A stretch of 64,000 nt of DNA, from positions 124,001 to 188,000 of the forward strand of contig JAJDAN010000003.1 of the NCBI GenBank assembly GCA_029261855.1. Reading direction: 5' to 3'. Positions 28,355 to 31,233 of the stretch are shown here, piece by piece. Made by a program: the position numbers and the translations under genes. The notes beneath the pieces were generated by a model, which saw only the letters and a list, made by a program, of their open reading frames with translations, was not told the DNA's origin and made no database searches. Position 1 is the stretch's first letter. The number at the start of each line of letters is the position of its first letter. This stretch comes from Deltaproteobacteria bacterium (GTDB lineage Bacteria; Myxococcota_A; UBA9160; UBA4427).

Positions 28355-29122
28355 ATGCTCGGCCGCATGTCTCGACACCCGCTGGCGACACCCCCTGCAC
28401 CCACGGTCGCGCGCGTGCTGACCGTCTCACTCGTCTCGTTCGTCGCACTCGGTTTGGCCATGGTCACCGGGTGCTCGGGCTTCGGACCCGGGACGGTCTA
28501 CGTCCCCGAGGACGTCCCGCGCGTCAAGGACGGACTGGATCTCGTCACCGAGGGTGCGTACTTCGACCGCGAATATCTGAAGTCCGGCCTCGACCTCGCC
28601 GCCTACGATGCCGTGCTCATCCACCCTCTCACTCTCGTCTATACCGCGGGCTACAAGCGCAATCATCGCTTCGACCGCAACGAGGGCGTCAAGCATCTGA
28701 TTCCCGACGCCCGCCTCGAGCAGTACCGGAAGGCGAACGGAGCCCAGCTGCAGCAGATGTTCCACAAGGCGCTCGCCCGCCAGCTGGAGCACAAGGGCGG
28801 CTACCGCGTGGTCGACGCCCCGGGACCCAAGGTGCTCACGCTGTCTGCGGAAGTCATCAACCTCGACCTCGAGCCCGCGATCGCCGAGCAAGCCACCGCC
28901 AACGTCGGCTACTACTCGCCGCCGCCCGTCGTGATGGTGGCCGCGACCCTGCGCGACGGCGGGACGGGCGCGGTCGTCGGAGAGATCCTGAACGCCGACA
29001 GCAACCCCGACGCTCCCGCGGACGCCGATTCGTTCTGGGGCCAGATCGACGACGCCTTCGACGACTGGGGAGGCCGCCTGCGCGCGGTCCTCGACCAGGC
29101 GCGCGCACAAGCCAAGCAGTAG
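28355..29122 (+). CDS. DUF3313-like lipoprotein
   Basis: A 255-residue predicted lipoprotein. A hydrophobic signal region ends in VTGC, a canonical lipobox, at about residue 40. The mature sequence contains features of DUF3313 proteins: LVYTAGYKRN-like segment, DARLEQYRKA and a conserved LTLSAEVINLDLEPA beta strand, then a C-terminal DAFDDWGGRLRAVLDQARAQ helix. The family's function is unknown; members are outer-membrane-associated lipoproteins. The start is ambiguous (ATG 28355 or 28367); neither has a clear ribosome binding site. The selenoprotein gene starts 9 bases downstream, so the two are likely co-transcribed. Confidence 0.78.
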   Translation: MLGRMSRHPLATPPAPTVARVLTVSLVSFVALGLAMVTGCSGFGPGTVYVPEDVPRVKDGLDLVTEGAYFDREYLKSGLDLAAYDAVLIHPLTLVYTAGYKRNHRFDRNEGVKHLIPDARLEQYRKANGAQLQQMFHKALARQLEHKGGYRVVDAPGPKVLTLSAEVINLDLEPAIAEQATANVGYYSPPPVVMVAATLRDGGTGAVVGEILNADSNPDAPADADSFWGQIDDAFDDWGGRLRAVLDQARAQAKQ

Positions 29123-29131
29123 CCGCGAAAC

Positions 29132-29707
29132 GTGCGCAGGGCGTTCCGACACCTGACCCCCTCCCTCGTCGCCTGCCTGCTACTCGCGGCAGCCGCGTCC
29201 TCCGGGGCTGCCGGCTCGCTCGGAATCGCGGTGGGCGATCCCGCGCCGAAGTTCCTTCTCGAAGACGCGACCGGGACGCCGCGCAGTCTCGACAGCCTGC
29301 TCGAACGCGGGAAGCTGGCGATCGTCTTCTACCGCTCTGCCGACTGGTGACCCTACTGCAAGCGGCAGCTGGTCGAGCTGCAGGAGAACCTCGGAAGACT
29401 CCACGAAGCCGGCATCGAGCTGGTGGCCATCAGCTACGACCCGCAGCCCGTGCTCGCGGCGTTCGCCTCGAAACGCGGCATCACCTATCTGCTGCTGTCG
29501 GATGCGGGCAGCCTCACCATCGACGCGTACGGCATCCGCAATACCGAAGTGCGGGGTGCGCGCATCGACGGTATCCCCTACCCGGGCACCTTCCTGCTGG
29601 ATGCCCAGGGCATCGTGCGCGCAAAGCTGTTCGAGGACGGCTACAAGAAGCGGCACACCGCGCAGGACATCGTCGACGCCGCGGCGGGGATCCCCAGAAC
29701 CGAATGA
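29132..29707 (+). CDS. selenocysteine-containing redoxin (AhpC/TSA thioredoxin-fold), UGA73 = Sec
   Basis: A 191-residue thioredoxin-fold protein read through an in-frame TGA at 29348-29350. Residues 1-27 are a signal peptide; the mature part starts IAVGDPAPKFLLEDATG, typical of AhpC/TSA redoxins. The redox site reads SADW-U-PYC, with U at residue 73 and Cys76: relatives have Cys at exactly the TGA position. Reading continues in the same frame with no other stop through the fold (VAISYDPQPVLAAFA, YPGTFLLDAQGIVRAKLFEDGYKKRHT). A bacterial SECIS-like hairpin lies just after the TGA. It starts at GTG 29132. It probably reduces thiols or peroxides in the periplasm. Conventional gene calling would split it into a 72-residue fragment and a 94-residue fragment. 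Confidence 0.9.
29365..29381 (+). promoter_or_regulatory. bacterial SECIS-like hairpin
   Basis: GCAGCT (29365-29370) pairs perfectly with AGCTGC (29376-29381) around the loop GGTCG. The loop begins 20 bases after the TGA, within the 16-37 base window for bacterial SECIS elements, and starts with the required G; GGUC is also found in the E. coli fdhF loop. It lies inside the coding sequence, as bacterial SECIS elements do, and should recruit SelB. Confidence 0.8.
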
Positions 29708-29736: not shown

Positions 29737-30321
29737 ATGTCGATCCTGAAGGTCGCTCGCCTCGGGCACCCGGTCCTGCGCCAGCCCGCGCGAGACCTGA
29801 CGCCAGACGAGATCCGTTCGGACGCAGTTCGCCAGCTCGTGCGCGACATGCATGCCACCATGATCGAGTACGGCGGCGTCGGCCTCGCCGCGCCCCAGGT
29901 CCACGAGCCCCTGCGCCTCGCGGTGATCGAATTCAGCGGCGAGAACGAGCGCTACCGCGTCGACGAGGCGCAGCCCTTGTGGGTCGTCTTCAACCCCAGG
30001 GTCACGGTGCTCGACGAGAAGACCGAGGGTTTCTGGGAGGGTTGCCTGTCGCTACCCGGCCTCCGCGGCTACGTGGAGCGCCCGCGCCGCATTCAGGTCG
30101 ACTACCTCGACGCGTCCGGTGAGCCCCAGCAATGCGTCGCCGATGGCTTCCTGGCGACCGTCTGCCAGCACGAGTTCGACCACCTCGACGGCGTTCTCTA
30201 TGTGGATCGCATCACGGACCCGACCAAGCTGTCGTTCGTCGAGGAATACGCCCGCTATCACGCGACGGGGCAGGACGAGGCCCAGGAACCGGATCTGGAC
30301 TCGGACGGCCCCCGGGTCTGA
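29737..30321 (+). CDS. def: peptide deformylase
   Basis: A 194-residue metalloenzyme that removes the formyl group from nascent proteins. All three family motifs are intact: GVGLAAPQ (47-54), EGCLSLPG (metal-binding Cys103) and QHEFDHLDG (His145, catalytic Glu146, His149). The C-terminus is extended by about 20 acidic residues beyond the usual end, a feature of some Gram-negative type 1 enzymes. It has no fmt partner here, which suggests a second, non-essential or specialised copy. It starts 29 bases after the redoxin stop, inside the tail of an 11-bp repeat. Confidence 0.95.
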   Translation: MSILKVARLGHPVLRQPARDLTPDEIRSDAVRQLVRDMHATMIEYGGVGLAAPQVHEPLRLAVIEFSGENERYRVDEAQPLWVVFNPRVTVLDEKTEGFWEGCLSLPGLRGYVERPRRIQVDYLDASGEPQQCVADGFLATVCQHEFDHLDGVLYVDRITDPTKLSFVEEYARYHATGQDEAQEPDLDSDGPRV

Positions 30322-30375: not shown

Positions 30376-31233
30376 ATGCAGACACGGGATCGCGTCGCGC
30401 TCGTCACCGGCGCTTCTTCCGGGATCGGCGAAGCCGCCGCTCGCAGCCTGGCCAAGCGCGGCTTCCGGGTCGTCGTCGCGGCGCGACGCGGCGAGCTGCT
30501 CGAGAGCGTCGCGAAGGACCTCACCCAGCAGGGGTGCGACGCCTTGCCGGTGGTCTGCGACCTCGCCGATGAAGACGCGACCTCGGCCCTCGTCCGCAGC
30601 GCGATGGACGCCTTCGGTCGCATCGACGTCCTCGTCAACAACGCGGGCTACAGCCCGGGCGGTGCCATCGAGCACTTCAGCCGCAGCGCGCTGCGGCACA
30701 TCTTCGACGTCAATCTGCTGGGCGCCCTGCAGCTGTCGGGTGAAGTGGCGCCCATCATGCGCGAGCAGAGAAGCGGTCGGATCATCAATGTCGGCTCTCT
30801 CGGCGGCAGCGTCGCCGCGCCGCTGGCCGTGCCCTACAACGCGACCAAGGCGGGGCTCGACATCGCGACGCGCGGCCTGCGCTTCGAGCTGGCGCCCTGG
30901 GGCATTTCGGTATCACTCGTGGTTCCGGGCTTCATCGATACCGCGGTCTTCGAGAATGCGCGGGACGGCGCGGTGGATCTCCGCAACGACCCGGACAACC
31001 CCTATCGACAGCTCTTCTTCGACCTCGACGACTACGCGATGAAGAGTCTCGAGAACGCGCTCCCGCCCGCGGCGATCGGCGAGTTGATCGCGCGTGTGGC
31101 GACGTCGCGCCGCCCGCGCCTGCGCTACTACGCGCCCCTCTCGGCCCATCTACAGAGCCGCTTCATGGGGCTCATCCCGGAAGCCTGGGCCAACGCCATT
31201 CTCATGCGGGTGTACAAGATCCCCCGCCGCTGA
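30376..31233 (+). CDS. SDR family oxidoreductase
   Basis: A 285-residue classical SDR: TGASSGIG (11-18), VNNAG (87-91), catalytic Ser in NVGSLGG and Tyr154-Lys158 (YNATK). AARRGE after beta-2 favours NADP(H). The longer C-terminus, after NDPDNPYRQLFF, with a hydrophobic/basic end, resembles SDRs acting on bulky lipids such as retinol/hydroxysteroid dehydrogenases. The substrate is unknown. It is convergent with the sulfotransferase gene, only five bases apart. Confidence 0.9.
   Translation: MQTRDRVALVTGASSGIGEAAARSLAKRGFRVVVAARRGELLESVAKDLTQQGCDALPVVCDLADEDATSALVRSAMDAFGRIDVLVNNAGYSPGGAIEHFSRSALRHIFDVNLLGALQLSGEVAPIMREQRSGRIINVGSLGGSVAAPLAVPYNATKAGLDIATRGLRFELAPWGISVSLVVPGFIDTAVFENARDGAVDLRNDPDNPYRQLFFDLDDYAMKSLENALPPAAIGELIARVATSRRPRLRYYAPLSAHLQSRFMGLIPEAWANAILMRVYKIPRR

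Follow-up and report, generated by a model that had tools for sequence, protein, structure and literature searches.

A predicted Prx-like selenoprotein redoxin in a Myxococcota genome and the codon-level covariation of its SECIS hairpin

Peroxiredoxin-like (Prx-like) proteins carrying selenocysteine (Sec) in a UxxC motif entered the literature between 2005 and 2008, with a description from the Sargasso Sea (PMC1088965). The later GOS survey counted 225 sequences of Prx-like 1 and 68 of Prx-like 3, the 225 Sec forms of Prx-like 1 standing against 2,740 Cys homologues (PMC2398784), and a 2016 survey places the Prx-like family in 28 organisms (PMC5029168). A 2026 review lists both a 'Prx-like thiol:disulfide oxidoreductase, PF00578, UxxC/UxxU' and a 'Redoxin family protein, PF08534, UxxC' (PMC13188914). 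Here, we describe a gene of this kind from a window of 64,000 nucleotides, the whole stretch of DNA analysed, which covers positions 124,001 to 188,000 of contig JAJDAN010000003.1 of a Deltaproteobacteria bacterium (GCA_029261855.1). The features of the locus, in window coordinates, are as follows.

28355–29122, same strand as the redoxin gene: flanking gene for a DUF3313 protein
29132–29707, + strand: predicted Prx-like (AhpC/TSA-type) redoxin selenoprotein gene; GTG start, TGA stop; 191 aa including Sec73
29132–29215, + strand: putative signal peptide MRRAFRHLTPSLVACLLLAAAASSGAAG, judged by eye from a positive start, a hydrophobic stretch and an AxA-like end
29348–29350, + strand: UGA codon, predicted Sec73, in the motif SADW-U-P-Y-C; TGA in 107 of 111 relatives
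29357–29359, + strand: Cys76, putatively paired with Sec73; at the peroxidatic Cys position when aligned to PDB peroxiredoxins, and invariant in the A2 alignment
29365–29381, + strand: in-gene bacterial SECIS hairpin, supported by geometry, −8.9 kcal/mol and covariation
29582–29584, + strand: Pro151, family-invariant, at the catalytic Arg116 position of AhpE
29737–30321, same strand as the redoxin gene: flanking gene for peptide deformylase
30376–31233, same strand as the redoxin gene: flanking gene for an SDR oxidoreductase

The sole interruption of the frame from 29132 to 29707 is the internal TGA. PF00578 (AhpC-TSA) matches the translation straight across it, over residues 34–164 (E = 1.7e-30; 106 bits against a gathering score of 26), and PF08534 (Redoxin) also matches across it (E = 3.1e-18, 66 bits). 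An earlier sequence-only reading had proposed a selenoprotein from this TGA, the open frame around it and the downstream hairpin. All three were recovered, and the proposal is supported by the Sec machinery of the genome, the recurrence of the TGA in relatives and the covariation of the hairpin. On these computational tests, it is highly probable that the TGA is read as Sec and that the gene is a genuine selenoprotein.

The same reading had drawn attention to the adjacent peptide deformylase gene. This adjacency looks incidental: when the neighbouring translations of related loci were inspected by eye, no repeat of either def or the DUF3313 gene beside the redoxin gene was visible, and the nearest coding-like neighbours vary from locus to locus. 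The search for spread of the redoxin on plasmids gave distant matches only, the best listed at 35% identity. Leaders resembling the putative signal peptide are present in several relatives and the redoxin is probably exported to the periplasm, as judged by eye from its own leader.

The AlphaFold2 model of the protein has a pLDDT of 88 and a pTM of 0.81, with the first 30 residues at low confidence (pLDDT 55–58). Compared with the PDB, this predicted model is closest to the solved folds of BcpB, Bcp4 and AhpE, followed by PrxQ and ResA. Profile alignments place U73 at the Thr/Ser position of peroxiredoxins and C76 at their peroxidatic Cys; Pro151, invariant among the 35 relatives of the A2 alignment, was placed at Arg116 of AhpE by hmmsearch alignments that run through the R116A mutant chain 4xih. 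The PxxxT/SxxC motif of canonical peroxiredoxins is absent, the sequence being FYRSADWUPYC, with Arg68/Ser69 at the position of the peroxiredoxin Pro; UxxC (UPYC) stands in place of TxxC or TxxU, and the catalytic Arg of a canonical peroxiredoxin is replaced by Pro151. Proline at this position presumably resembles the cis-proline of thioredoxin-like reductases, and the active site would then be thioredoxin-like on a peroxiredoxin fold. The sequence-only reading had taken U as the first Cys of a thioredoxin CPYC site; this is too simple, the protein having a peroxiredoxin fold in which U replaces Thr and C76 holds the peroxidatic position.

The alignment of U73 with the Thr of peroxiredoxins, of C76 with their peroxidatic Cys and of the invariant Pro151 with Arg116 leads us to favour a thioredoxin-like thiol:disulfide oxidoreductase, rather than a classical peroxidase, as the likelier function of the protein. 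A peroxidase with a genuine Sec73 is possible but the less probable of the two. Either Sec73 or Cys76 would reduce hydroperoxides and the other would resolve, as in a compact atypical 2-Cys peroxiredoxin. Such an enzyme would suit the nearest folds and sequence profiles, which are those of the peroxiredoxins BcpB, AhpE and PrxQ, and the peroxidatic position of Cys76, where U and C could form a peroxide-reducing pair; it is harder to reconcile with Sec in place of Thr, Arg68/Ser69 in place of Pro and an invariant proline in place of the catalytic Arg, and the literature names the family 'Prx-like thiol:disulfide oxidoreductase'.

The hairpin consists of GCAGCU (29365–29370), the loop GGUCG (29371–29375) and AGCUGC (29376–29381). 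It begins 15 bases past the TGA. Bacterial SECIS elements are limited to a loop of 3–9 nt with G in its first two positions, a stem of 4–16 bp, a distance of 16–37 nt from the UGA and an MFE of −7.5 or below (PMC13188914). The hairpin lies within these limits, with its 5-nt loop, its stem of 6 bp, a loop that begins 20 nt past the TGA and an energy of −8.9 kcal/mol when the segment is folded alone. In single-sequence folding it is not outstanding (z = −0.33), longer windows mostly favouring other folds, and neither the whole window nor the SECIS region gave a match to a SECIS family when searched against Rfam.

The hairpin covers the codons for a QLVEL or QLGEL peptide, and its stem can be followed through the synonymous choices made in relatives. 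A stem of five Watson–Crick pairs forms in 75 of the 78 distinct Sec genes; synonymous codons drawn from these genes would be expected to give one in 22% of cases. Treating related sequences as independent, the third base of Q79 and the first base of L83 are G-C in 68 genes, A-T in 8, G-T in 2 and A-C in none (Fisher p = 1.9e-9; next-best p = 0.012 for the same base against other Leu positions), and the first base of L80 and the third base of E82 are C-G in 73 and T-A in 5 with no mismatches (p = 4.7e-8; next-best control pairing p = 0.06). The outer pair, between the third base of codon 78 and the first base of codon 84, is mostly G-C (65) or C-G (10). On a protein tree built without the Sec column, the Q79–L83 pair changed at least 8 times, with 8 and 9 changes at its two ends, and in a typical pairing all 6 of the starred independent pairs share one direction of change (median p = 0.03); the other two base pairs changed too rarely for this test. 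Paired synonymous changes thus preserve the stem across the 78 distinct Sec genes, and this covariation supports a SECIS under selection, maintained by compensatory change.

It is very unlikely that the hairpin is a by-product of a conserved peptide in a GC-rich genome, with Sec inserted by way of another element. QLVEL and QLGEL do readily yield CAGCT...AGCTG, in 22% of cases by synonymous choice alone, and the hairpin is intact in two (L134 and L150) of the four relatives that have Cys in place of Sec; by inspection, the stem is broken in a third (L075) and the loop altered in the fourth (L087). What argues against this origin is the coupling itself: CAG or CAA goes with CTG or TTG, and CTN or TTR with GAG or GAA, while the other Leu and Glu positions of the same genes are uncoupled.

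The codon at the U column was compared among relatives found in named genomes with two peptide patterns that flank this column, a procedure with no bias to TGA over TGC. The scan confirmed 438 loci, of which the best 80 were kept for comparison; 76 of these have TGA and 4 have TGC or TGT. With order-mates and one paralogue included, the count is TGA in 107 of 111 and a Cys codon in 4 of 111, so that the SADWUPYC alignment, suggested in the sequence-only reading, gives Cys in four homologues and Sec in the rest. Within the order, an AhpC/TSA match is present in every one of the 80 genomes, nearly all of the best matches contain exactly one TGA, and in all of the order-mates compared the TGA falls at the Sec site. 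The relatives are mostly Acidobacteriota, together with Verrucomicrobiota, Planctomycetota, Gemmatimonadota, Chloroflexota, Pseudomonadota and Myxococcota, as named by record titles, several of which, for metagenome-assembled genomes, are possibly misassigned.

It is scarcely credible that a point mutation to TGA, or an assembly error, has disrupted an ordinary gene whose true codon is TGC or TGG. A single base change would give Cys, which four relatives do have, but TGA occupies the same codon in the other 107 across several phyla, the downstream hairpin covaries and the genome has the complete Sec machinery. Assembly error in particular is ruled out by the recurrence in more than 100 loci together with the covarying hairpin. 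The four Cys forms all come from Acidobacteriota; the tree requires a separate change for each of them, and they are candidates for a recent change from Sec to Cys.

Profile searches of the assembly that holds the window (6.96 Mb, 98.6% complete) found the whole set of selA, selB, selD and tRNA-Sec for which the sequence-only reading had proposed to look, all over curated cut-offs: SelA at 517 bits, SelB at 273 bits in a match to the N-terminal part of an ORF of 651 aa, SelD at 338 bits in a gene that has a single in-frame TGA, and, on the same contig as the window, a tRNA-Sec at 66 bits whose anticodon is tca (UCA). A genome-wide reassignment of UGA, for example to Trp or Gly, would also keep the gene open but has practically nothing to recommend it: homologues have Cys at this residue and not Trp or Gly, the genome encodes tRNA-Sec and SelB, and a general code change is refuted by terminator usage, TGA being the commonest terminator (it ends 447 of the 690 long coding-like ORFs sampled over 1.62 Mb).

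The in-frame TGA of SelD (L018:1501-2427; G000:C24:63971-64897) lies, as read from the sequence, at a U-A-R-K site, and this selenophosphate synthetase is itself predicted to be a selenoprotein; UxxK is a form of SelD listed in the 2026 review (PMC13188914). Sec use appears common in the phylum, with tRNA-Sec over the Rfam cut-off in 251 of 379 sampled genomes; the phylum is absent from the groups called selenoprotein-rich in the accessible portions of published surveys.

We propose that SelB, loaded with Sec-tRNA(UCA) and directed by the hairpin at 29365–29381, would read the UGA at 29348–29350 as Sec. Together, Sec73 and Cys76 would make up the U-P-Y-C redox pair, located in the folded protein where the active-site helix begins. 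Sec73 may attack an oxidised substrate, the substrate and the direction of the reaction being part of the proposal, and Cys76 would resolve Sec73 as a selenenylsulfide. The latter would be reduced by a periplasmic thiol donor, the donor and the export of the protein being likewise presumed.

Further predicted Sec genes are found elsewhere in the genome. Nine of its 20 AhpC/TSA (PF00578) matches contain an in-frame TGA (L054, L055, L058, L059, L060, L064, L068, L069 and L071); in eight the TGA lies in a redox-like motif (UPYC, UPPC, TPGU, UPFC, UGC or ULFC), while L071 is a contig-edge fragment. Two candidate Sec genes lie ~900 bp apart on one strand (L059:705, G000:C21:16517, and L059:1612, G000:C21:17424). 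The product of the first has 300 aa and a PLUPVCHQ motif, is matched by no Pfam family and, from its appearance, may be PrdB-like; the second encodes a redoxin with RGHW-UPYC, apparently membrane-anchored. When 1.62 Mb was scanned by codon usage, on contigs partly chosen for holding matches, ~8 convincing Sec genes emerged. The literature calls a genome selenoprotein-rich from six Sec genes upwards, and this one qualifies; nothing suggests a selenoproteome of record size, the largest in the accessible literature being 57–63.

On a quick tree with long branches, the window gene groups with L072 and L073 (Verrucomicrobiota), L083 (Planctomycetota) and L078 (titled Deltaproteobacteria) with an SH-aLRT of 95, in a set separate from the SAVW-UPPC clade of its own order. 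A second Sec redoxin of the genome (L055, G000:C89:432160-432648), with SAVW-U-P-P-C and the SECIS codons CAG CTC GGT GAG CTG, falls inside the clade of the order. In the other genomes of the order for which loci were read, the best matches included no SADW-type copy, and the single congener examined has a distant match only. Transfer into the lineage or repeated loss would explain this distribution.

The gene adds a well-supported and probably exported selenoprotein in a seemingly uncultured member of the Myxococcota, from a family common in Acidobacteriota; both phyla are absent from the selenoprotein-rich groups named in the accessible parts of reviews. Covariation at the level of codons provides a direct and inexpensive test for a SECIS that single-sequence folding misses, and standard gene callers would enter such genes as two fragments. 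More tentatively, the SADW-UPYC proteins may be widespread and almost obligately Sec-using exported redoxins, with the SECIS within QLVEL, spread by transfer among Acidobacteriota, Verrucomicrobiota, Planctomycetota and Myxococcota. They might form a dedicated redox branch outside the cytoplasm that depends on selenium and has been undercounted owing to the splitting of its genes by gene callers.

With respect to known systems, the redoxin shares its overall fold with AhpE, BcpB and PrxQ (1xxu, 5epf and 2cx3; TM-score 0.84–0.89 by target length for AhpE and BcpB), but is without PxxxT/SxxC and has Pro at the AhpE Arg116 position and Sec at the Thr position. With the redoxin as query, every NCBIfam model stayed under its own cut-off. 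It resembles ResA, TlpA and DsbE in its CxxC-type pair and probable periplasmic location, and ResA is among both the profile and the fold matches, but the scores lie under the cut-offs for ResA and DsbE (44.8/170 and 25.2/123). The SelL-related NF040769 is likewise a Sec/Cys Prx-like redox protein, matched weakly (E = 8e-10) at 38.6 bits against a cut-off of 120, and the redoxin is not a member. Prx-like 3 (PF08534) has UxxC in common with it; PF00578 scores higher here than PF08534 (106 against 66 bits), which makes the PF00578 family the nearer label. Compared by description, Prx-like 1 (PF00578) is alike in its AhpC/TSA domain, in Sec within UxxC at the peroxiredoxin site and in an in-gene SECIS. 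The redoxin differs in SADW-U-P-Y-C and in its probable signal peptide, and its relatives are mostly Acidobacteriota with few Cys forms (4 of 80 in our sample), where the GOS family had many more. A Sec redoxin here was at first read as unusual; the Sec gene is real by our tests, but Prx-like UxxC selenoproteins are a described family, to which the redoxin would belong by domain and motif. What is new is this member, its placement outside the clade of its own order and the codon-level covariation of its SECIS.
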